A DNA stretch of 34,945 bases from Nitrosopumilus sp. LS_AOA (GTDB lineage Archaea > Thermoproteota > Nitrososphaeria > Nitrososphaerales > Nitrosopumilaceae). The translations under genes and the position numbers were made by a program. Each line of letters begins with the position of its first letter. The first letter of the stretch is position 1. The notes under the pieces are model-generated. The model saw only the letters and a program-made list of their open reading frames with translations, was not told the origin of the DNA and ran no database searches. Shown here piece after piece: positions 1-31,852 of this stretch. Location: the NCBI GenBank assembly GCA_001543015.1, contig LFLC01000065.1:1-34945 (forward strand), written 5' to 3'.

Positions 1-138
1 ATAACTTATAAATAATTTTAGTGATTTTATTTAATATACTATTTGAGAATATCCGAGGCTATAAGTATAACTATGAGTTTGGCATTTGATACTAGGGTTG
101 TTGTCGAAACATCCTGGAAGACATCTTGAAGGGAATTC

Positions 139-175
139 TCCATGGACCTACAGTTTAAACTCCATGGATCTACAG
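139..175. repeat. Short direct repeat pair TCCATGGAYCTACAG
   Basis: Two 15-bp copies lie at 139-153 and 161-175 and differ at one base (C/T). They are separated by seven bases that contain most of the 8-bp palindrome GTTTAAAC at 153-160. Each copy contains the palindrome CCATGG. Function unknown; it may be part of a decayed element. Confidence 0.6.
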
Positions 176-294
176 CATATAGTGTTATAATACAGTGAAA
201 ATGGCGATACGTCACCTTTTTTAATGGAGCCTTAACTACATAAACGATGATACTGGCTGTTCCATATACACTTTGAAAATATTAAATAAGTGGT

Positions 295-540
295 TTAAAT
301 GAATTTCATATCACCGAATACCCCGTTTATGATCGTTTTGTACCTGTAAGAGCCGTATCGTACCTTAGATACAATTTTCAACTCGCTTCCATTTTGCACC
401 TCCTGAAGAGGTGCAAAATGGGCACAGAAAATATAATGAGACACAAAATATTTACTGTTAACATAATTTTTCCTAACAAGTAAACCATGGGGAACAAGAA
501 AATACCAAAGAAGTTTAATAGTTGGGGTGCATGCGGATCC
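295..540 (-). pseudogene. Possible C-terminal remnant of a transposase (very tentative)
   Basis: A minus-strand frame of about 82 codons runs to a TAA at 295-297 with no ATG start; its 5' limit is an in-frame TAG near 541-545. The last 23 codons read KVRYGSYRYKTIINGVF followed by GDMKFI, which loosely resembles the C-terminal region of DDE transposases (aromatic/basic residues before a G-V-F-x-x-M-K motif). The upstream half is not convincing protein and carries the 14-bp palindrome at 389-421. Chance openness of AT-rich DNA is a real alternative. Confidence 0.18.
389..421. repeat. Perfect 14-bp inverted repeat, 5-nt loop
   Basis: CCATTTTGCACCTC at 389-402 is followed by loop CTGAA at 403-407 and the exact reverse complement at 408-421. 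A perfect 14-bp stem with a short loop is the strongest hairpin in the window. No T-run follows on the plus strand, so it is not a typical archaeal terminator. It could be a hairpin in an untranslated RNA, a protein-binding site, or abutted terminal repeats of a small mobile element. Confidence 0.8.
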
Positions 541-735
541 ACCCTAGCCCAAGTACTAATTCAGTTACTAATTTAAACGAGAATACGAGAAATTCATTTT
601 GGTAACTCTATAAGCTTCATCGTTGAGGATGTTAATGTAATAATAATACTTGTGGGACTAGTTCAACTTAGTTTGGTAGATTATTCTTTGCTTTACTGAA
701 ATTCAATAAAGCGTTGTTTCGTGTGATTTTCATTG

Positions 736-761
736 TGCTTGGAACATTTGCTTGAAACATT
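736..761. repeat. 13-bp tandem duplication
   Basis: TGCTTGGAACATT at 736-748 is followed directly by TGCTTGAAACATT at 749-761. One mismatch. It lies upstream of the HIT gene, too far for a core promoter. Function unknown. Confidence 0.6.
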
Positions 762-884
762 TTTTGTTGATTACACACTTTTGGTTGAGTGCAACAATTG
801 TTCAAATGTGATTAGGTATCATTGAAGGAATGCTTTCTTGTTTTTTAATTAAAACAATAAATAAAATTAGAAATTGCTAAAACT

Positions 885-1292
885 ATGAATTGTATTTTTT
901 GTGATATTTTAGATGGAAAAAGAGATGGTCATTTTCTATATGAGGATGACTCACATGTCTCATTTTTAGACAAGTATCCAATTGATGTTGGTCACAGCTT
1001 AATTATTCCAAGAAAACATCATGAAACAATTACTGATATGACTCCAAAAGATGTTGGTAGTATTTTTTCTCTAGCCCCAAAAATTGCTAAAGCCATTTTA
1101 ATTGCAACTGGTGCTGATGCATTTAGTCTTGGTCAAAATAATGGAAAGGCAGCAAAACAAATTGTTCCACATGTTCACATACACATCATTCCAAGATATA
1201 ACGAGAAAGGTACTGTCTGGACAAAACGACAAATCTCAAATGATGCTGAATTATCAGAACTAGCAAAAAAAATACGTAGTGTTCTTACTTAG
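885..1292 (+). CDS. HIT family (Hint-type) nucleotide hydrolase/transferase
   Basis: A 135-aa protein, the normal length for single-domain HIT proteins. The histidine triad is HVHIHIIPR with H96, H98 and H100; the central His is the nucleophile in the family. N-terminal C3 and C6 (CIFC) are the pair that, with downstream His residues, bind zinc in Hint-like members. The family hydrolyses nucleoside phosphoramidates or dinucleotides in the cytoplasm; the substrate cannot be told from sequence. The gene starts at ATG in an AT-rich leader with TTAATTAAA-like TATA sequence around 847-855. It runs convergent to aRF1 and the two 3' ends overlap by 8 nt. Confidence 0.93.
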   Translation: MNCIFCDILDGKRDGHFLYEDDSHVSFLDKYPIDVGHSLIIPRKHHETITDMTPKDVGSIFSLAPKIAKAILIATGADAFSLGQNNGKAAKQIVPHVHIHIIPRYNEKGTVWTKRQISNDAELSELAKKIRSVLT

Positions 1293-2568
1293 AGTGGCCT
1301 GGATTATATCTCAAAACAGCACCAATTTTTCCAAGACTGGCAAGCATGTTTCCATGCTCAGCACTTCCAGAAATCACTTCTAATTGAGTTCCTGTTTTTG
1401 CTGCAATTAATTCTAGATAATCCACAATATCTTGTTCTTTGACTTCTGTGTCCATTGCATTACATTCTGGGCATGGTTTGTTTTTGTATTCTGTTTTTTT
1501 TGGAATTACAAGTGGTCTTTCTATAATTTCTTCTTGAATGTGTTTACAGCGCTTACATGTCGCCTCTACTCTATGTAAATTGGTGTTATCTGTAATCAGT
1601 AAAATCTTAACTACATTATTTTTTAGATACTCTATAACCTCTTGTAATCCGTATGCCCCTTTTCCTGTATTGGTGTTTATTTCTCTAAATAGATCCTCTA
1701 TCATTTTTTTCTCTTCAACCATTCTGAAGTTTCCTAAAATATCTCCTGATTTTGCAAATGCCTCTCTAATTCCTTCAGCTCCTGCATAACCCGCATCAAT
1801 TGTATTGATGATGTTATTTTGTAATCTGTATTCTAAATAATTTCCATTTATGAAATCTTCCTTTGTTGGGCCTGGACCTGAAATTATTAGTCCTTTAACT
1901 GGATAGATATCGATAAAATATTCTCTAGTAACTTGTGCAACTCTGTTGTAAAAATAACTTAATTCCATTTCTCTTAATTTTTGAAATCTTTTTGCAGATT
2001 GACCACCTTGTCTGTGCTTTCCTGCAACTCCAGAACCTGTCTGTCCTAAAACTTCAATTTTATCTCCATGTAATAATCCCCAACCTGCATCTTTTGCATC
2101 AATTGCTAAAAACCCGATAAGATTATCATCTTTTAACATATCTTTTAGAATGTCTACGTGAAAGTGATCATCACATCTGTAGAGATATTGATTCAAATCT
2201 TTTGGTGGATCAATTTCCCACACTGTAACTACTTCACTTCCCAATGGCCCTCCTTCTTCTGAAGGTAGTGCGCCACAAAATATCACTAATCCCCTTTCAG
2301 GTGTTTTTTTGTATAGCTTTAATCTTTGAACAACTTTACCTAGAGAATCAACAACATGTGATCTTGTAAGGTCTGACTTTATGTTATCTGCAGTACCCTG
2401 TTCTTGTTGAAGTGAACTAATAATTTCATGGAGTTGTTTTCCCTTTGGAATGTATACTGTAATTAATTCTGTACCTCTACCTGATTTTTCAGATAATTCT
2501 TCAAGTGTTTTTCTAATTTTATAGAGTTTAACTGAATCTTGTTTTTCTATGTTTATTTTTTTATTCAT
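1285..2568 (-). CDS. prf1: Peptide chain release factor aRF1
   Basis: A 427-aa archaeal class-1 release factor, close to the family's usual 410-420 aa. Domain 1 has the stop-codon reading motifs NIKS (62-65) and YxCxxxF (Y130, C132, F136). Domain 2 has GGQ at 188-190 in a GGQSAKRF context, which triggers peptidyl-tRNA hydrolysis. Domain 3 contains two cysteine pairs (CKRC, CPEC) typical of the archaeal zinc-containing C-terminal domain. It recognises all three stop codons on the ribosome. All expected catalytic residues are intact. The 3' end overlaps the convergent HIT gene. Confidence 0.97.
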   Translation of the reverse strand: MNKKINIEKQDSVKLYKIRKTLEELSEKSGRGTELITVYIPKGKQLHEIISSLQQEQGTADNIKSDLTRSHVVDSLGKVVQRLKLYKKTPERGLVIFCGALPSEEGGPLGSEVVTVWEIDPPKDLNQYLYRCDDHFHVDILKDMLKDDNLIGFLAIDAKDAGWGLLHGDKIEVLGQTGSGVAGKHRQGGQSAKRFQKLREMELSYFYNRVAQVTREYFIDIYPVKGLIISGPGPTKEDFINGNYLEYRLQNNIINTIDAGYAGAEGIREAFAKSGDILGNFRMVEEKKMIEDLFREINTNTGKGAYGLQEVIEYLKNNVVKILLITDNTNLHRVEATCKRCKHIQEEIIERPLVIPKKTEYKNKPCPECNAMDTEVKEQDIVDYLELIAAKTGTQLEVISGSAEHGNMLASLGKIGAVLRYNPGHSK

Positions 2569-2615
2569 TTATGATTTTTCCTAAATTTGCGAATATTAAT
2601 TGATTCACTTCTAAA

Positions 2616-3260
2616 TTACATCTCATCAATTGTTTTTAGAAATACTTCTAATGGTTGGTTTCCTCTGATTTTGATCACTTTTTGATCATTGAAGATTAAA
2701 AATGACGGTGTAGCATCAATCCCGATCTCTTTTCCAAATTCATGAAGTGTTTTTACCTTTTCTTCATATTTTTCACCATCTAGACATTTGTTGAATTCTT
2801 TTAAATCCAAACTCACTGTATTTGCAAATTTATCTAGTGATTCTCTTGTAATCCATCCTGTTTTTTCACCTCCCCAATTTTTGTATAGTTCGTTGTGATA
2901 TTGCCAATATTTTCCTTGATCTTCAGCACAATATGCTGCTTGAGCAGCAATTAGAGAATCTGGACCATTTAATGGAAAGTCCTTAAAGACCAGTTTGACT
3001 TTACCTGTTTTTATAAAATCTTCTTCAATAATGCTTAACGTGTTTTGATGAAACTTGTAACAATAGGTGCATTGGTAATCTCCCCACTCTAAAATTGTAA
3101 TTGATGCATTAGGATTCCCCAAAATTGGAGATCCATTTTCAATTAGTTTTGATACAGTAATTATTTTAGAATTATTTTCTGTTTCTGGATATATTGCTAA
3201 AAATCCCCCTACAACAATTCCGATAATTACTGGTATTGCAAGAAGATACAATTTTGTCAT
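2616..3260 (-). CDS. Membrane-anchored DsbA-family thiol-disulfide oxidoreductase
   Basis: 214 aa. Residues 4-24 form one hydrophobic signal-anchor segment, placing the catalytic domain outside the membrane. The thioredoxin-fold active site is CTYC (C64, C67) in the W-G-D-Y-Q-C-x-x-C context of DsbA/BdbD-like thioredoxin_4 proteins. The cis-proline loop is in TPSFLIF. The helical insert between these is of DsbA type. It probably oxidises or isomerises disulfides in exported proteins; AOA carry several such paralogues, so the specific client is unknown. It is divergent from cbtB copy 1 across a 117-bp intergenic region. Confidence 0.9.
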   Translation of the reverse strand: MTKLYLLAIPVIIGIVVGGFLAIYPETENNSKIITVSKLIENGSPILGNPNASITILEWGDYQCTYCYKFHQNTLSIIEEDFIKTGKVKLVFKDFPLNGPDSLIAAQAAYCAEDQGKYWQYHNELYKNWGGEKTGWITRESLDKFANTVSLDLKEFNKCLDGEKYEEKVKTLHEFGKEIGIDATPSFLIFNDQKVIKIRGNQPLEVFLKTIDEM

Positions 3261-3348
3261 ATTTTTTATGAATTTAATTTCTAGTATAAAGTGTCGATTT
3301 GATAAATTGATCTGGAGAAATGATCTTTACAATTTTCCATCCAAGAGC

Positions 3349-3358
3349 TTAAATATAT
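3349..3358 (+). promoter_or_regulatory. TATA box for cbtB copy 1
   Basis: TTAAATATAT is centred about 24 nt before the ATG at 3378. This spacing puts the transcription start at or next to that ATG, consistent with a leaderless mRNA and favouring 3378 over the in-frame TTG at 3366. Confidence 0.6.
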
Positions 3359-3377
3359 TCAAATCTTGATAATTTCG

Positions 3378-3593
3378 ATGTCCGAATCTAGACAAATTTC
3401 TGTATCAAAGAATGGTGTTTCAAAACTTGCAATAATTGCATTAGCATTAGTATTTGTAGCAGGATTATTTGTAGTAGGATTTGATCAAGGACATATCTTT
3501 AGTCTAGTTATTGGTGAGGAGGCATTTGCAGATCTTTACATCCATGAACTAACTCACGATATGCGTCATGCAGCCGGTTTTCCATGCCATTAA
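3378..3593 (+). CDS. cbtB: CbtB cobalt transporter subunit, copy 1
   Basis: 71 aa when started at ATG 3378. A TTG 12 nt upstream is possible, but the TATA spacing and alignment with copy 2 favour the ATG. One transmembrane helix (about 16-38) is followed by an acidic and His-rich tail ending HELTHDMRHAAGFPCH, the signature of CbtB. CbtB is the small partner of CbtA in a predicted cobalt uptake system first noted next to B12 regulation in bacteria; the His-rich tail is the likely metal ligand. The last 46 residues are identical to copy 2 at 4319, while the first 25 differ. It is the only gene on its transcript before a convergent regulator gene. Confidence 0.9.
   Translation: MSESRQISVSKNGVSKLAIIALALVFVAGLFVVGFDQGHIFSLVIGEEAFADLYIHELTHDMRHAAGFPCH
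3451..3586 (+). repeat. 136-bp identical block shared by two cbtB copies (copy 1)
   Basis: Positions 3451-3586 match 4392-4527 base for base (offset 941), including all synonymous sites. The flanking 5' coding parts are clearly diverged, and a synonymous C/T change follows immediately at 3587/4528. This pattern indicates recent gene conversion or partial duplication limited to the 3' part of the gene. Confidence 0.95.
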
Positions 3594-3607
3594 GAGTTCT
3601 AATATTT

Positions 3608-4252
3608 TCAACTAGTTCCTAACGTCCAAAGTATTGTATTGATTGCGGCTATTTCTGCTACGAATTTATCATCTGATGAAGTGATTATGACTATATCTCC
3701 TTCTTCAGGACTCAATAATTTTATCAAATTATCTTTGGTTTCTAATTCATCTGTAAAACAACTAATCTTATCCCCAGAAAAAACAAATTCCTTGTTTTTG
3801 AATATTAATGTTAAAGAATCACTTGCCCCATATAGGATAGCATAGTCCCGCTGTTGCATTCCATTTTCTATGCTTGCACCAAACTCTTTCTTTAGTAAAA
3901 TCGCATAATTGAATTTTCCATTTGTGATCCCACATTTTTTTATGAGACCTTGTGATGGCATTACATTGTAAAATTGGTTTGCAAACTTGATTCCTTTTTT
4001 TGTAAGAAAAGTTCCTGCTCTGATAGAATCCACTAGTCCGTATTCTTTTAAATGTGAAATCAATGTTTTAACTGCACCTTCACCCAAATGGATTTCTTTA
4101 CAAAATGTTGCTCTACTAACATATTTTTGATTAGCAAAACAAAAAATTGATTTTAAAACATGAGGTGCACTAAAAGTCAATATTTTACTTGACCCTTTTC
4201 TTGTAACAATATTTTGTAATGTTTTTACTTGCTGTCGCACATTTTTTATCAT
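3608..4252 (-). CDS. Winged-helix transcriptional regulator (DUF4443-like), candidate regulator of cobalt uptake
   Basis: 214 aa from ATG at 4252; a TTG at 4285 would add 11 residues. I prefer 4252 because the shared TATA element at 4288-4297 would place the transcript start near 4266. Residues about 30-95 form a winged helix (F-C-K-E-I-H-L-G-E-G-A-V-K-T-L-I-S-H-L-K recognition region, then a wing with GTFLTKKG). The C-terminal half resembles the archaeal DUF4443 ligand domain, by memory only. The gene lies antisense between two cbtB copies, is divergent from cbtB-2/cbtA by 66 bp and convergent with cbtB-1, so control of cobalt or cobalamin supply is a reasonable inference. Inducer unknown. 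Confidence 0.75.
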   Translation of the reverse strand: MIKNVRQQVKTLQNIVTRKGSSKILTFSAPHVLKSIFCFANQKYVSRATFCKEIHLGEGAVKTLISHLKEYGLVDSIRAGTFLTKKGIKFANQFYNVMPSQGLIKKCGITNGKFNYAILLKKEFGASIENGMQQRDYAILYGASDSLTLIFKNKEFVFSGDKISCFTDELETKDNLIKLLSPEEGDIVIITSSDDKFVAEIAAINTILWTLGTS

Positions 4253-4287
4253 TTTTGATGTATATAAATTGGATAAAACATCCAACG

Positions 4288-4297
4288 TTTTATATCA
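4288..4297. promoter_or_regulatory. Shared, bidirectional TATA element between regulator and cbtB copy 2
   Basis: TTTTATATCA reads as TGATATAAAA on the other strand. On the plus strand its centre is 26-27 nt before the TTG start of cbtB-2, fitting a leaderless transcript. On the minus strand it would start a transcript around 4266, shortly before the ATG at 4252. A regulator bound here would affect both genes. Confidence 0.5.
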
Positions 4298-4318
4298 TAC
4301 AAAAAAATCAAAATTTTA

Positions 4319-4534
4319 TTGTCACAATCAAAAGAGATTATAATTTCTAAATCTAGTATTCCTATTTTTGCAATAGTATTATTGGCAATGATATTTGTAG
4401 CAGGATTATTTGTAGTAGGATTTGATCAAGGACATATCTTTAGTCTAGTTATTGGTGAGGAGGCATTTGCAGATCTTTACATCCATGAACTAACTCACGA
4501 TATGCGTCATGCAGCCGGTTTTCCATGTCATTAG
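4319..4534 (+). CDS. cbtB: CbtB cobalt transporter subunit, copy 2 (TTG start)
   Basis: 71 aa, the same length as copy 1. The start is TTG at 4319; no in-frame ATG precedes the membrane helix, and the TATA box at 4288 gives leaderless spacing to this TTG. One helix (about 15-38) precedes the His-rich tail HELTHDMRHAAGFPCH. Residues 26-71 are identical to copy 1. It is followed by cbtA after 10 nt, so this is the copy cotranscribed with the transporter, whereas copy 1 is a stand-alone gene about 940 bp upstream. Confidence 0.9.
   Translation: MSQSKEIIISKSSIPIFAIVLLAMIFVAGLFVVGFDQGHIFSLVIGEEAFADLYIHELTHDMRHAAGFPCH
4392..4527 (+). repeat. 136-bp identical block shared by two cbtB copies (copy 2)
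   Basis: Exact match of 3451-3586. See copy 1. Confidence 0.95.
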
Positions 4535-4539
4535 GTGAT
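4534..4539 (+). promoter_or_regulatory. Shine-Dalgarno site of cbtA
   Basis: GGTGAT overlaps the last base of the cbtB-2 TAG stop and lies 5 nt before the cbtA ATG. As an internal operon gene, cbtA uses SD-led initiation, unlike the leaderless first genes nearby. Confidence 0.55.
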
Positions 4540-4544
4540 ATTGT

Positions 4545-5276
4545 ATGAAAACAGCTATTTTTCTAATCATTGTTTTAATTTCAGGAGCACTTGCAGGTTT
4601 TGTTCATGGAACAGTAAATTTTGCAATTGTTGAACCATACCTTGATCAAGCAATTGGCATTGAAAATCAAAATTTGTTTGCATCAGGTGAAGCAGAAGAC
4701 ACTCCTCAATTTTGGGCAGAATATGAGGGATATCGAATTTGGCAAAAAAGTGGCCAAGTTTTAGCTGGAGTCATTTTAGGTACATCTATTGGTGCATTAT
4801 TTGGTTTAGTGTTTGCATTTGCTAGAAACGTATTACCTGGAAATAATGATATCAAAAAAGCACTAGTTTTAGCTGGAATTATGTGGTTTACCATGTATTT
4901 GATTCCATTTCTCAAATATCCTGCAAACCCTCCAACTGTAGGTGACTCTGAAACTGTTGTGTTACGTGCGATACTGTATCTATCATTTATTGCAATTTCA
5001 GGATTTGGTGCATTGGGATTTTATCAATTATCAAAGAAATTCCAAAACAAGAAAAAAATTATTCCACTGGTAGGTTATGGTCTTTTCATTTCTATAGCAT
5101 TCTTTGTAATGCCTGAGAATCCTGATGAGATTACTGCGCCAATGAACTTGGTAAATGAATTTAGAATGATGTCTGTCCTTGGAGTAACTTCTTTTTGGAT
5201 ATCAGTTGGTGTATTCTTGGGATTGTTTTGGAATCGTCTAAAACCTCATCAAGAAACTACTCCATCTTTTAATTAG
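4545..5276 (+). CDS. cbtA: CbtA cobalt transporter membrane subunit
   Basis: 243 aa with about six hydrophobic segments (roughly 4-22, 71-93, 105-122, 137-160, 172-189, 210-229); the CbtA family is described with five or more helices. The N-terminal G-A-L-A-G-F-V-H-G and F-A-I-V-E-P motif and the E-G-Y-R segment before helix 2 are typical of CbtA. Together with CbtB it forms a predicted cobalt uptake system in the cytoplasmic membrane. It lies 10 nt after cbtB-2 with its own SD site, so it is cotranscribed. Ammonia-oxidising archaea make cobalamin, which explains the need for cobalt. Confidence 0.9.
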   Translation: MKTAIFLIIVLISGALAGFVHGTVNFAIVEPYLDQAIGIENQNLFASGEAEDTPQFWAEYEGYRIWQKSGQVLAGVILGTSIGALFGLVFAFARNVLPGNNDIKKALVLAGIMWFTMYLIPFLKYPANPPTVGDSETVVLRAILYLSFIAISGFGALGFYQLSKKFQNKKKIIPLVGYGLFISIAFFVMPENPDEITAPMNLVNEFRMMSVLGVTSFWISVGVFLGLFWNRLKPHQETTPSFN

Positions 5277-5298
5277 TTATTCTAACTCTCTAGAATGA
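5277..5298. promoter_or_regulatory. Candidate operator O1: TTATTCTA-N6-TAGAATGA
   Basis: Half-sites at 5277-5284 and 5291-5298 form an inverted repeat with a 6-bp spacer and one mismatch. It lies 17 bp upstream of the TATA box of the wHTH pair. The same arrangement recurs before phnD (6045-6066). The 12-mer TAGAATGAGAAT at 5291-5302 recurs exactly as its reverse complement at 6041-6052. Confidence 0.6.
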
Positions 5299-5314
5299 GA
5301 ATCATATATACTCG

Positions 5315-5323
5315 TTTAAATAT
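5315..5323 (+). promoter_or_regulatory. TATA box of the wHTH gene pair
   Basis: TTTAAATAT is centred 27 nt before the ATG at 5346, the standard distance for a leaderless archaeal transcript. Confidence 0.65.
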
Positions 5324-5345
5324 CTAAAATATTTACAACGTTAAC

Positions 5346-5678
5346 ATGTCAAGGCGATTAACATTACCACAATTAAAAAAATATGATATTACTCAAAAAG
5401 TAATTGAAGCACTTGCAGACTCTGAATCAAGAGCTATATTATTTTCAATAATTAGAAAAGGAAACACTGCAGCTGAACTTTCAAATAAACTCAAAATCCC
5501 ACTAAGTTCTGTTTACAAAAAACTCTCAGATCTTGAAGAACTAACTTTAATCAAAGTTGAAAAATGGATGATATCTGATAAGGGACGGAAATACAAAGTG
5601 TATAAGAGTAGAATCAGCAAAGCTGATATTTCAATTAGAAAACCTGAGCCAACTTTGATTTTAGTTCCAAACAAGTGA
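5346..5678 (+). CDS. Winged-helix (ArsR/TrmB-like) transcriptional regulator, paralogue 1
   Basis: 110 aa. A single wHTH domain fills residues about 14-90: D-I-T-Q-K-V-I-E-A-L, then AAELSNKLKIPLSSVYKKLSDLEELTLIK as the helix-turn-helix, and a wing around WMISDKGRKYKVYKSR. No ligand domain or metal-binding Cys/His cluster is visible. It forms a coupled pair with the next gene (stop TGA overlaps a possible GTG) and precedes the phnDCE transporter. Inverted repeats before both this gene and phnD suggest that the pair regulates itself and the transporter. Confidence 0.82.
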   Translation: MSRRLTLPQLKKYDITQKVIEALADSESRAILFSIIRKGNTAAELSNKLKIPLSSVYKKLSDLEELTLIKVEKWMISDKGRKYKVYKSRISKADISIRKPEPTLILVPNK

Positions 5679-5683
5679 GATTG

Positions 5684-6034
5684 ATGTCAAAACCAGGTAT
5701 TATTCAATTATCCGAGTTTGATATTACTCAAAAAATCATTGAATCCCTTAGTAATGTTTGTACTCGAGCTGTATTATTTTCAATAAAATATGAATCAAAA
5801 GATGCTACTCAAATTTCAGATGAATTGAAAATATCAATTTCAACTGTTTACAAAACATTGTCTATTCTTGAGGATCTTGCACTAGTTGAAATAGAACACT
5901 TTGTAATTTCTTCAGAAGGTAAAAAAATCAAACAATATCGAAGTAGAATTGGTAAAGTTGAAATTATTTTAGAGGATTCAGAACCTAGTTTGAGTTTGTA
6001 TCCAAATCTCTCAAATGTAAAATCTGATTCTTAG
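5684..6034 (+). CDS. Winged-helix transcriptional regulator, paralogue 2
   Basis: 116 aa from ATG 5684; a GTG at 5675 overlapping the upstream stop (GTGA) is the alternative. ATG is preferred because it aligns with the start of paralogue 1. The proteins match throughout: FDITQKIIESL versus YDITQKVIEAL, STVYKTLSILEDLALVEIEHF versus SSVYKKLSDLEELTLIKVEKW, and a shared wing ending YRSRIGK/YKSRISK. Tandem duplication followed by divergence is clear. Translational coupling suggests equal amounts and perhaps heterodimer formation, which is inference. Confidence 0.82.
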   Translation: MSKPGIIQLSEFDITQKIIESLSNVCTRAVLFSIKYESKDATQISDELKISISTVYKTLSILEDLALVEIEHFVISSEGKKIKQYRSRIGKVEIILEDSEPSLSLYPNLSNVKSDS

Positions 6035-6044
6035 TTTTACATTC

Positions 6045-6066
6045 TCATTCTATAGATTTAGAATGA
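6045..6066. promoter_or_regulatory. Candidate operator O2: TCATTCTA-N6-TAGAATGA (perfect)
   Basis: Perfect 8-bp half-sites at 6045-6052 and 6059-6066 with spacer TAGATT. It lies about 21 bp upstream of the phnD TATA box. A further partial half-site (GGAATGAA) follows at 6073-6080. It matches operator O1 before the wHTH genes in half-site sequence and spacer length. Confidence 0.65.
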
Positions 6067-6087
6067 ACCCTTGGAATGAATACTTGC

Positions 6088-6096
6088 TTTAAATAA
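6088..6096 (+). promoter_or_regulatory. TATA box of phnDCE operon
   Basis: TTTAAATAA is centred about 34 nt before the phnD ATG, leaving a short leader containing TTTAGGAAATT. It sits just downstream of operator O2. Confidence 0.55.
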
Positions 6097-6125
6097 TTAG
6101 CTTTTACTAAATTTTTTAGGAAATT

Positions 6126-7130
6126 ATGAAACAAAAAATAATTTTAACATTTGTTGTAATTGCTGTAGCTGCCTTTCTTGGTGGCTATGGTTTAGGGAAT
6201 GTGAATGATAATTCTGATTCTTTAACAACTAATGAAATCATTAACGTTTCATCTGAATCAAAATCTATTGATGTTGACACCCTAACTATTGGATTTATTC
6301 CAGTTGAAAAAGCTGATGAATTAACTCCAAAAGCTAAAGCACTAGAAGTATTTCTAGAAAATGAACTTGGTGTTGATGTAGATATAGTTGTTCCATCTGG
6401 ATATGAGGCAATCATTGAAGGAATGAGATTTGGTCACATTGATGCTGCTTTTATGGATACTGGCCCTGCATGGATTACCCATCAAAGGACTGGTGCAGAA
6501 GCAGTATTGGCAGAACTTGTTGCTGGAAAAGTAAACTATCAAGCAACAGTTTGGGCTTTGGCTGAGAATGACTCTATTCAATCATTAGAAGATACAATTG
6601 GTAAACGGGTAGCATTTACTAGCATTACCGGCTCTTCTGGTTTTGTTAGACCTATGGGTACCTTAGTTACTGAAGGACATATTGTCATTGAAGGCGATGA
6701 TATTATTGCATTACAATCTGCATTAACAAATAACTTTGAAAGTCATACTTTTGCAGGTGGTTACAAGGCAGCTTTGGAATTACTCTTACTTGACCAAGTC
6801 GATGTAGCATTTGGTTCAGATATTGCTCCTAAAAAATATCTTGATTTAGAAGATCAAGCAAAATTACGTCCTGTAACAACTATTGGACCTGTTCCATCAC
6901 ATGTTTTCATGGTACATTCTGACATGTCAGAATCTACTCGTGATGCACTAGTTAGTGCTTTAATCAAACTCAACTATGATGAGAATAATTCAATTTTGAC
7001 GGATTTGTATGGTGCTGATGCACTTGTCCCAACCACCACTAGTATGCATATCGGTGAGTTTGGTGACTACCTTAATGCATTAACTGGCCTTGATCAGCTT
7101 ATTCTTGACAAATATAATAAGAGCAAATAA
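6126..7130 (+). CDS. phnD: Phosphonate/phosphite-type ABC transporter substrate-binding protein (PhnD family)
   Basis: 334 aa. Residues 5-25 are a hydrophobic signal anchor without a lipobox cysteine, so it is probably tethered outside the membrane by this helix. The mature part has the PhnD fold: TIGFIPVEKADELTPKAKAL at the start, then PSGYEAIIEGMRFGHIDAAF and MDTGPAW, the conserved ligand-loop region. It would deliver phosphonate, phosphite or a related oxyanion to PhnCE. It is the first gene of a three-gene operon. No C-P lyase or phosphonatase gene is in the window, so the fate of the ligand is open. Confidence 0.88.
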   Translation: MKQKIILTFVVIAVAAFLGGYGLGNVNDNSDSLTTNEIINVSSESKSIDVDTLTIGFIPVEKADELTPKAKALEVFLENELGVDVDIVVPSGYEAIIEGMRFGHIDAAFMDTGPAWITHQRTGAEAVLAELVAGKVNYQATVWALAENDSIQSLEDTIGKRVAFTSITGSSGFVRPMGTLVTEGHIVIEGDDIIALQSALTNNFESHTFAGGYKAALELLLLDQVDVAFGSDIAPKKYLDLEDQAKLRPVTTIGPVPSHVFMVHSDMSESTRDALVSALIKLNYDENNSILTDLYGADALVPTTTSMHIGEFGDYLNALTGLDQLILDKYNKSK

Positions 7131-7147
7131 AAACTGGCATTCTGAAA

Positions 7148-7978
7148 ATGAAACAAATTCAGATGACCACTAATCCTTCTTTTTCATTAATTTCAACAAA
7201 AAAAGTTATTCAAATGAGTGATGTATGGTCATCATATGATTCTAAAAATTTTGCTTTAGAGGGAATTAATTTATCCATTGATAGGGGAACTATTTACTCA
7301 ATTGTCGGTCAATCTGGTTCAGGAAAATCTACTTTGCTCAAATTAATGAACGGGATGATGGTTCCAGGAAAAGGAATAATCAAAATTGATTATGTCACCC
7401 CTGATATGAATAATAAAAAATTTAAAACAATGATGCATACAATCGGATATATTCCTCAAAGTCTTGGGTTGATAAAAAATATCACAGTTCTTGACAATAT
7501 TCTCATTGGTGCATTACCTAGACTAAACAAAATTCAATCACTGTTAAAGAAATTTCCAGAAAATGAAGTAAAGGAAGCTAAAAGAATTCTTCAATTAGTT
7601 GGATTAACTGGAAAAGAGAATAGAAAAGTCTACATGATTAGTGGCGGTGAAAAGAGAAGAGTTGCAATTGCTAGGGCATTAATGCAAAAACCTACAATTT
7701 TGTTAGCAGATGAAATTGTTTCAGAATTAGATCACGTTACTGCACACGAGATTATGGATTTAATTATAGATGTTCAAAAAAGAACGAATTTGACTGCAAT
7801 AATGGTTCATCATGACATGCAACTAGCATTAGAATATGCAAATAGAGTTGCAGTTATCAAAGATGGGAAAAAAATCTTAGAGATAGGTGTTGAGGGTGAT
7901 AACATTGTTGATTTTCAAACAGGAGATATGACTACTGAAGAAATTATGGAGATGTATTCTGATGACCCCAAAAAATAA
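7148..7978 (+). CDS. phnC: Phosphonate-type ABC transporter ATP-binding protein
   Basis: 276 aa with a complete ABC ATPase core: Walker A GQSGSGKST (54-62), signature SGGEK (165-169), Walker B ILLADE (184-189), D-loop SELD (192-195) and switch His in MVHHD (H222). After Walker B the usual DEP is DEI, a substitution at the proline; this is conservative for catalysis because the Glu is kept. The closest general fit is PhnC by operon context. It starts 17 nt after phnD, and its 3' end overlaps phnE by 17 nt. ATPase acts at the inner membrane face. Confidence 0.9.
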   Translation: MKQIQMTTNPSFSLISTKKVIQMSDVWSSYDSKNFALEGINLSIDRGTIYSIVGQSGSGKSTLLKLMNGMMVPGKGIIKIDYVTPDMNNKKFKTMMHTIGYIPQSLGLIKNITVLDNILIGALPRLNKIQSLLKKFPENEVKEAKRILQLVGLTGKENRKVYMISGGEKRRVAIARALMQKPTILLADEIVSELDHVTAHEIMDLIIDVQKRTNLTAIMVHHDMQLALEYANRVAVIKDGKKILEIGVEGDNIVDFQTGDMTTEEIMEMYSDDPKK

Positions 7979-8747
7979 CATCATCATTGGAATAATTGTA
8001 GCATTACTAGTAATTGCATCTTATAATGTTGATGCAAATCCAATTGACTTTGTTGAAGGATTACCTAATCTTGTAATCATTCTTGAGGAGATAGTAGCAG
8101 TTGAACCAAAGTATATCCCAACTGCGCTATGGGCAATGTTTGAAACTATACAAATGGCATTTATTGGAACTGTAGTTGGAATTGCAATTGCACTACCTCT
8201 TAGTATGCTTGCTGCACGAAATCTAAACAGTAAATTTGTCTATGCCCCAATCAGAGCATTGTTAGCTGCGATTCGTACGTTTCCTTCTATTTTATGGGCA
8301 TTGTTGTTTGTGATAATGGTCGGAACTGGAACCTTTGCAGGAGTTTTAGCAATTATTATGTACACAATTGGATTTATTACAAAATTACAATACGAGGCAA
8401 TTGAAACAATTGATTCTGATCCTATGGATGCAGTTGGTTCTATTGGTGTATCAAAAATACAATTGATTAGTTATGTTGTGATTCCAGAATCGGCATCTCA
8501 TCTTCTTAGTCAAATGCTATACATGTTTGATTACAACATTCGTCAAACCAGTATACTTGGATTAGTTGGTGCAGGTGGAATTGGTTTTTACATTATTAAT
8601 TATATTAAATTCTTTGAGTATGGAAAAGCTGCTATCTTTATGTTGGTTGTTTTGATAACCGTTTTAATCATTGATTGGGTAAGTGTGAAGATTCGAGACA
8701 AGTACATTATCAAATCTCAACATGGTATGGATGTTCCCACAAAATAA
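7962..8747 (+). CDS. phnE: Phosphonate-type ABC transporter permease
   Basis: 261 aa with about six membrane helices (for example 7-22, 50-75, 87-105, 110-135 and 200-240). The EAA-like coupling loop is in D-A-V-G-S-I-G-V-S-K-I-Q-L-I-S-Y-V-V-I-P-E. The stretch LPLSMLAARN and the segment with RTFPSILWALLFV are typical of PhnE. It is the last gene of the phnDCE operon and its start lies inside phnC, suggesting translational coupling. It ends 14 bp from the convergent purP. Confidence 0.88.
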   Translation: MTPKNNIIIGIIVALLVIASYNVDANPIDFVEGLPNLVIILEEIVAVEPKYIPTALWAMFETIQMAFIGTVVGIAIALPLSMLAARNLNSKFVYAPIRALLAAIRTFPSILWALLFVIMVGTGTFAGVLAIIMYTIGFITKLQYEAIETIDSDPMDAVGSIGVSKIQLISYVVIPESASHLLSQMLYMFDYNIRQTSILGLVGAGGIGFYIINYIKFFEYGKAAIFMLVVLITVLIIDWVSVKIRDKYIIKSQHGMDVPTK

Positions 8748-8761
8748 TTTCTAAAATTTGA

Positions 8762-9787
8762 TTATGTGGTAATTTTATCTAGTTGATTTGATTCTGTGGC
8801 AGTTTTAATCTCTCTTGCAATTCTTTTACCCATACTCATAGGCTCATTAAACAATAGTGAATAGTATGGAGAACCATCCATGTAGATATTGGTTCCAGCA
8901 ACAATTCTTGCAGAAAACTCAAAGGATGTAAATTTTGCATTTTCATCATAAACCCCTTCAATACAAAATGGACCATTCATTCCTGGTGAAACAACTCTTT
9001 TTGCAGCCTCTACAAAATTTTCCCCCATAGTATACACTTCATCTAATAGTGATTCACGTAATACTAGAGGACTATTACCTATCACATTAAATGATGGAAC
9101 TTTTTTTGATTTTAGCTGTTGCTCTGATGGTATCCTTGCAAGACCTTCAATATCTGATTCGTGTCTTTGATCAACTCCAAAGAACTCTAATTCATCTTTT
9201 AATGGTGAGTAAAAAAATTGCAAGTAAGCTAAAACACCTGCAGCATATTCTTGTATGTAGAGTGTTTCATCTTTTGAAATCACTCCTTCTAAAATTAATT
9301 GATTTCTTTTTGTATTGTAATCCTCTTCATTTGCTGCCATAAAGTATCCTTTACCTCCAGCTGCGCCTTGTCTTTTTACAATTACTAATTTCTTAATGTC
9401 TTTAGGGTCTGATACAGGGTTTGGCATTGGTAAATTTGCTTCTTTCATGAGTTTTTCTTTCATTACTCTATCTGATTCCCATCTTAGAATCCATTTGTTT
9501 CCAAAGATTGGTGTCTTGATTGATTCTATTTCTTCAGAACTCATTTGTGCAATTAATGTTCCATGCGGAATTAAAACGGCATTATTATTTTCAAGAATGC
9601 TTTGACATTTTTGATCTAAAATTTCTTTGAATGAATCAACCATAATTAATTCGTCAATAAATGGAAATCTTTTATACAATTTTTCACGTTTTTTTTCACA
9701 AACAAGTATTGTTTTTAGGCCTTCATCTTTTGCACCTTTGAGAACTTGTAAAGAACAATGTGATCCTAATGTTGCTACAGCAGTCAT
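8762..9787 (-). CDS. purP: Formate-dependent FAICAR synthetase PurP
   Basis: 341 aa, typical length. An ATP-grasp ligase that formylates AICAR to FAICAR with formate and ATP, the archaeal replacement for the transformylase half of PurH in purine synthesis. Recognisable features are the N-terminal ATLGSHCSLQVLKGAKDEG, the phosphate-binding Gly-rich loop VKRQGAAGGKGYF, and the C-terminal metal-binding region FCIEGVYDENAKFTSFEFSA (E and N/E residues). It starts with ATG 28 nt downstream of a small gene on the same strand and is probably cotranscribed with it. Confidence 0.95.
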   Translation of the reverse strand: MTAVATLGSHCSLQVLKGAKDEGLKTILVCEKKREKLYKRFPFIDELIMVDSFKEILDQKCQSILENNNAVLIPHGTLIAQMSSEEIESIKTPIFGNKWILRWESDRVMKEKLMKEANLPMPNPVSDPKDIKKLVIVKRQGAAGGKGYFMAANEEDYNTKRNQLILEGVISKDETLYIQEYAAGVLAYLQFFYSPLKDELEFFGVDQRHESDIEGLARIPSEQQLKSKKVPSFNVIGNSPLVLRESLLDEVYTMGENFVEAAKRVVSPGMNGPFCIEGVYDENAKFTSFEFSARIVAGTNIYMDGSPYYSLLFNEPMSMGKRIAREIKTATESNQLDKITT

Positions 9788-31516: not shown

Positions 31517-31852
31517 CTAATTCCCTAATGAATTACCTTGACTTTTCTTTTTGTAATTTTTGTATAAAATACGAATACCGAATCCTATCACCAATATCCC
31601 AATAACTTGAAAATACCATTCTCCAAATGATACAATATGATAACTACCGATGATAATCATCATAATTCCCCATAGTCCACTTTGAGTAAGTTTTTGAAAT
31701 GAATTTTTAGGCACCATTTTTTGTGGTGTGTCATCTATTTTTTCTATTTTTTCTATTTTTTCTATTTCTACGTTACATTTACAATTTGGACAATATTTGA
31801 GCTTAGGATTTAATTCACTACCACATTCTCTACAGAGATTATCCTCAACCAT
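31517..31852 (-). CDS. Zinc-ribbon membrane protein
   Basis: 111 aa. An N-terminal zinc ribbon (CRECGSELNPKLKYCPNCKC; C7, C10, C21, C24) is followed by a short tandem EKI repeat (EIEKIEKIEKI), then two membrane helices (about 61-78 and 82-96) and a basic tail. The ribbon would face the cytoplasm. It starts 18 nt downstream of promoter element copy B. Function unknown. Confidence 0.8.
   Translation of the reverse strand: MVEDNLCRECGSELNPKLKYCPNCKCNVEIEKIEKIEKIDDTPQKMVPKNSFQKLTQSGLWGIMMIIIGSYHIVSFGEWYFQVIGILVIGFGIRILYKNYKKKSQGNSLGN

Follow-up and report, generated by a model that had tools for sequence, protein, structure and literature searches.

Recurrent concerted evolution of protein-coding genes is rare in prokaryotes; a published survey reports 26 such genes, and all seven archaeal ones that it lists come from methanogens (PMC6053082). 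The nearest precedent for the case presented here is the mtrA-1/mtrA-2 pair of Methanococcales and Methanomicrobiales, in which one domain is homogenized at the DNA level within each species while another region stays distinct, and for which the same two models that concern us below, an old duplication followed by conversion or repeated duplication, have been weighed (PMC4632066). CbtAB, in turn, has been described as a predicted cobalt transporter encoded by adjacent genes, with bacterial cbtBA placed under the control of a B12 riboswitch (PMC2667541, PMC8123684).

Here we describe a pair of cbtB genes, small membrane-protein genes with a probable role in cobalt handling, that share an identical 3' block in Nitrosopumilus sp. 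LS_AOA, a member of the Nitrosopumilaceae. They lie in what we call the window, that is, the whole stretch of DNA analyzed, 34,945 nucleotides of contig LFLC01000065.1. The process is a known one, as the mtrA study (PMC4632066) and the survey (PMC6053082) describe it, and cbtB in several marine ammonia-oxidizing archaea is a clear new example of it; we found no report of cbtB homogenization in the literature searched on CbtAB, on archaeal concerted evolution, on gene conversion in Thaumarchaeota, on DUF4443/PH0730 or on Nitrosopumilus cobalt transport, and both cbtB and Thaumarchaeota are absent from the main text of the survey (PMC6053082). Like the mtrA pair as described, the cbtB genes are tandem archaeal paralogs with partial homogenization within species; the mtrA copies belong to a single operon and are told apart by a transmembrane domain (PMC4632066), whereas the cbtB copies have separate promoters, a regulator gene between them and a homogenized part that includes half of a transmembrane helix. 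As in the surveyed genes, the cbtB paralogs are closer to each other than to their orthologs, synonymous sites included, and this in several species, but the survey addressed full-length homogenization and the cbtB case is partial (PMC6053082). The window also resembles the described bacterial systems in carrying Pfam CbtB and CbtA in adjacent genes, and differs from them in having a DUF4443 regulator and a palindrome in the place of the riboswitch (PMC2667541, PMC8123684). It offers a clean partial case in ammonia-oxidizing archaea with a natural control, in that homogenization affects linked copies and spares the unlinked ones of the genus, and it separates the parts that change (regulator, operator, start codon and N-terminus) from those that are equalized (half of the transmembrane helix and the tail).

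The locus and its shared block

Both open reading frames encode CbtB (Pfam PF09489, E 8.8e-10 and 2.3e-9), with profile scores of 39 and 37.7 bits that stand above the curated cut-off of 27 bits, and genome-wide matches in this genome comprise two CbtB, one CbtA and one DUF4443 protein. The stand-alone copy, cbtB1 (3378-3593, plus strand), starts with ATG, encodes 71 aa and has a native-type 5' part; its ATG and N-terminus are kept in relatives, and the open reading frame list also offers a longer start at TTG 3366. The second copy, cbtB2 (4319-4534, plus strand), starts with TTG, has a cassette-type 5' part and stands directly before a native-type cbtA (4545-5276, plus strand; Pfam PF09490, E 2.6e-55). 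Setting cbtB1 apart from cbtA, besides cbtB2 itself, is R (3608-4252, minus strand; Pfam PF14544, E 1.3e-24), a gene for a DUF4443 / PH0730-like winged-helix regulator that is convergent with cbtB1 and divergent from cbtB2, and whose start is the ATG at 4252 where the open reading frame list puts it at TTG 4285. By Pfam and synteny, a DsbA-like gene (2616-3260, minus strand) marks the native locus on the left and two short winged-helix genes (5346-6034, plus strand; also in the open reading frame list) form its right flank, the native order being aRF1-DsbA-(R)-cbtB-cbtA-two wHTH genes-PhnD-type ABC transporter. The tandem winged-helix genes and the PhnD-type ABC transporter (6126-8747) are conserved beside cbtA across the genus, and in some relatives a minus-strand gene that by eye looks receiver-like (response-regulator) lies between DsbA and cbtB (L128:1566-2336, L061:2077-2655).

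The initial annotation had described 136 identical bases with sharp ends, and such a tract between diverged flanks is indeed what the pair contains. The longest exact match between the two genes is 136 bp, 3451-3586 in cbtB1 and 4392-4527 in cbtB2, at an offset of +941; upstream of it, within the gene, identity falls to about 57-59%, and after the stop codons the sequences are unrelated, with nothing clear in common. The exact block ends 4 bp ahead of the first base of the stop codon, where the first base past it differs (TGC/TGT, synonymous, two codons before the stop), and this C/T difference is the sole change in the last 46 codons of the pair, 44 of 45 comparable codons being identical. 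The other exact 25-mer repeat in the window is a short one with a 9-bp period near 31734.

The initial annotation also spoke of the copies keeping the same metal-binding tail, but this is not what the identity is about. The His-tail motif HELTHDMRHAAGFPCH is nearly invariant also in unlinked copies, for most of which DNA identity across the block is only 69-82%; because these copies keep the tail anyway, it needs no homogenization. Conversion, as read from the sequence, would instead equalize synonymous sites together with the linker and the second half of the transmembrane helix.

Linked and unlinked pairs across the genus

A search with CbtB protein matched 82 of the 95 genus genomes, and two cbtB genes at this locus were found in 8 of the 95. 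The two genes lie within 1.3 kb of each other in the genome of the window (G000) and in G010, G054, G076, G027, G032 and G088, with G044 added by inspection; outside the genus, a family search that matched 210 of 250 genomes gave no comparable close cbtB pair among the matches listed. Denoting the genes B1, R, B2 and A, the order B1-R-B2-A is seen in the window, G010, G054, G076, G044 and G027, and the order R-B2-A-B1 in G088 and G032. The second copy of G027 has decayed and has no block common to both genes, and that of G044 is partly N; 25 nt can be read at either end of its block, and by eye, after alignment with a 3-nt offset, they are identical to the first copy.

In all six linked pairs that are intact and fully readable (G000, G088, G032, G076, G010 and G054), identity over the last 138 nt is 99.3-100%, the exact runs measure 136, 164, 153, 96, 209 and 140 nt, and 44-45 of 44-45 codons agree; the sequence of the block differs between species. 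The closest other-species copy to these 12 linked copies has 28-41 of 41-45 codons identical, in a comparison that rests on one genome per species, and for the window copies the nearest relative in another genome belongs to the sister species G015/NORP47 (40-41 of 44 codons). Among unlinked pairs within a genome, none of 24 reaches 97% identical codons (median 51%), the 24 being those used of 26 made, after G091 (two identical loci, 9% contamination) and G134 (broken frame) were dropped, and including two pairs whose block values of 52-54% are not relied on, as copies were aligned from the stop codon and the 75-aa copies involved (G078 L147 and G056 L148) may be mis-registered. The best unlinked pair, that of G017, shows partial homogenization, with a 111-nt run in common and 93% identical codons. 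At synonymous codons, identity is 98-100% in linked pairs versus a median of ~51% in unlinked pairs, and native copies compared between genomes agree at 66% (median of 1373 pairs). With comparable homogenization in none of the 24 unlinked pairs, G017 being a partial exception, proximity must matter.

Trees point the same way. Block trees, built from a short alignment with a bootstrap that had not fully settled, join both copies of each genome, and AU tests rejected both a single clade of the four second copies from intact B1-R-B2-A loci (p 0.00085, with two sets of identical rows left free) and a union of these second copies with cassette copies (p 2e-46). The expectation of the initial annotation, that copies within a genome would be more alike than orthologs if conversion were ongoing, is borne out in all six fully readable intact linked pairs, and together with the rejected clade of second copies this supports its proposal of gene conversion. 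Recurrent homogenization of linked cbtB copies is well supported at the sequence level, and long-running gene conversion is the best reading of their identity. Both blocks are native-type in the B1-R-B2-A loci and cassette-type in the R-B2-A-B1 loci, and the same is true of cbtA, so that block type matches cbtA type in 6 of 6 pairs, the window cbtA, which is cut in the locus used for typing, being called native by its 95% identity to the native cbtA of G015.

Control regions and the regulator between the copies

The two genes had further been noted to differ in promoter and N-terminus; this is so, and it can be put more sharply, in that palindrome, TTG start and R all belong to the second copy only. 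The likely promoter region of cbtB1 (3338-3357, plus strand) has a TATA-like element, CTTAAATATA (3348-3357), preceded at 3338-3344 by CATCCAA, the right half of the cbtB2 palindrome standing alone, and the best the region upstream of cbtB1 offers to the full palindrome carries 3 mismatches. The exact operator-like palindrome TTGGAT-AAAAC-ATCCAA (4269-4285, plus strand) lies in the interval from R to cbtB2, where it overlaps the promoter region.

Across relatives, TTGGAT-N5-ATCCAA with at most one mismatch occurs within 75 bp upstream of 34 of 34 R-adjacent cbtB genes (22 of them exact), and shuffled upstream regions yield it in 0.03%. It is also found at 11 of 48 cbtB genes that were not scored as R-adjacent; in three of these R lies 511-952 bp upstream, and the remainder gave no R match at the threshold used. 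In the seven scored pairs, the regulated copy has the exact palindrome (7/7) and the partner copy departs from it by 3-6 mismatches (7/7). Furthermore, the second copy starts with TTG in all six B1-R-B2-A loci readable at the start, where the first copy has ATG; in G010 the homogenized tract begins as early as coding nt 5, but the TTG and the operator are still there.

R joins a winged-helix N-domain to a DUF4443 domain, as judged by Pfam, model and fold match. Its AlphaFold model has a pLDDT of 90, and its best PDB match is PH0730 (2p8t), a hypothetical protein of like fold (E 2.9e-9, 192 columns, TM 0.69/0.79, 25% identity). The position of the palindrome suggests that R is probably a repressor binding it, the two being linked by association. 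The regulatory split between the copies is well supported as anatomy, and a functional split, such as the use under different cobalt states put forward in the initial annotation, may go with it. Ammonia-oxidizing archaea are thought to make B12, and R and its operator form a candidate pair for cobalt or B12 control.

Two broader control schemes were considered and set aside. The genome of the window fits the palindrome at 15 places when one mismatch is allowed, versus 2 for a reversed control pattern; we propose no wider operator regulon, the only other exact site lying inside an open reading frame on contig C25 that is permease-like by eye. Control by a riboswitch was likewise rejected, with no Rfam match at the gathering threshold in window positions 1-9000.

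Proposed gene conversion and its alternatives

We propose, with a probability of roughly 70%, that two cbtB genes sharing one locus and one cbtA are recurrently rewritten by gene conversion. cbtB1 has the native promoter and N-terminus, and cbtB2 would have arrived with the divergent R and the operator. Homologous recombination between these direct repeats would then overwrite the 3' two-thirds of one cbtB with the other, so that the two genes remain near-identical within any one species even as the species grow apart. The control elements (promoter and operator), the start codon and the N-terminal codons escape this, since they are situated past the point where homology drops, and selection probably maintains them as well. 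A crossover in place of conversion would loop out R and one copy and leave a single hybrid cbtB, as in the sister species. cbtB2-cbtA would be under the control of R, presumably in a metal-dependent manner, and cbtB1 would give R-independent CbtB with the same tail for the same CbtA. The tract starts at coding nt 74, 74, 76, 50, 41 or 5 and in every case extends as far as the stop region; the starts at nt 74-76, in three species, coincide with a drop in homology between native and cassette cbtB near nt 73-85.

The sister species (NORP47/G015) has a single cbtB with a B1-side 5' end and a B2-side 3' junction, and its locus holds no clear trace of R beyond short matches at chance level. This may be either what a loop-out across the repeats left behind or the locus as it was prior to insertion. 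In G071 (L126), a deletion fuses a 3' remnant of R to the interior of a shortened cbtA, downstream of cbtB1.

The main alternative, which we consider unlikely, is that a module of R, operator and first cbtB codons has been inserted repeatedly into native cbtB by homologous recombination; each insertion would duplicate the resident 3' block, as in ends-in recombination with gap repair, and the identity would date the insertion. Native-type sequence in both blocks of the four intact B1-R-B2-A loci, the sister species that has no such arrangement and the breakpoints inside cbtB in G017 would all accord with this, as does the history of R. On a flank tree made without G117, G132, G134 and G219 (other genera), G091 and rows with ≤250 filled columns, the B1-R-B2-A arrangement is scattered and needs at least five changes, so that repeated gain is possible. 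R and flank trees disagree, the R of G010 being nearest those of G000 and G044 where the flanks group G010 with G076 and G054, and R modules may therefore have been exchanged between species, gained repeatedly, or have evolved unevenly. A clade of the G010, G076 and G054 regulators was rejected at p 0.03, which is only indicative given its post hoc choice and long branches. However, a single clade of all six B1-R-B2-A regulators is compatible with the data (p 0.25), and the three flank-tree neighbors G010, G076 and G054 share the arrangement. Repeated insertion would moreover require all six pairs to be very young (≤1 mismatch per 138-209 nt) though R differs by 21-39% among B1-R-B2-A loci, and no intact pair of intermediate divergence is seen; it also fails to give the cassette-type homogenization of the R-B-A-B loci.

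Also unlikely is that selection for a match to a shared partner, and not proximity, drives homogenization, both CbtB proteins having to suit a single CbtA. All seven genomes with homogenized pairs have one CbtA above the cut-off, and the agreement of block type with cbtA type, native or cassette, in all six pairs is what such selection would produce. Against it, G048 and G057 have, next to a native-side cbtA, native-locus copies whose blocks are cassette-like, and G094, G055, G051 and G019 have one CbtA match and two unlinked CbtB whose blocks are only 73-82% identical. These last four genomes weaken partner matching as a sole cause, and they indicate that linkage matters and that a shared CbtA is insufficient.

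An assembly artifact, in the form of a collapsed or chimeric short-read repeat, might be suspected of a genome in 67 contigs, and the G044 copy is N over part of the repeat; it is nonetheless highly improbable, as the blocks differ between species and several independent genomes, whose unique flanks are not the same, share the arrangement; G010, one of them, consists of a single contig of 1.69 Mb and also shows the within-genome identity. Purifying selection alone, which would appeal to the strong conservation of the protein block across the family, is refuted by the synonymous codons of linked and unlinked pairs and can be dismissed.

A more novel but less likely reading is that the 3' part of cbtB might serve as a recombinase-free docking site, with a module of R, operator, TTG start and N-terminus moving in and out of cbtB-cbtA loci, and between Nitrosopumilus species, by homologous recombination, after which conversion re-matches the block. 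If true, regulation and N-terminus would be swapped, and the part that faces CbtA would be brought back to the resident type.

Two sets of loci are of separate note. At the native loci of G094, G055, G019 and G051 (L144, L145, L167 and L168), cbtA is reduced to fragments and the neighboring cbtB is intact; stand-alone cbtB has therefore arisen repeatedly, and it may act apart from a CbtA of its own. In G017 (L135, L136 and L137), contigs C10 and C11 look like reciprocal recombinants, seen as separate contigs, in which flanks switch between native and second type inside cbtB, in opposite senses, as would be expected of a cbtB block acting as a recombination point; the same genome also has a third, ordinary native locus.
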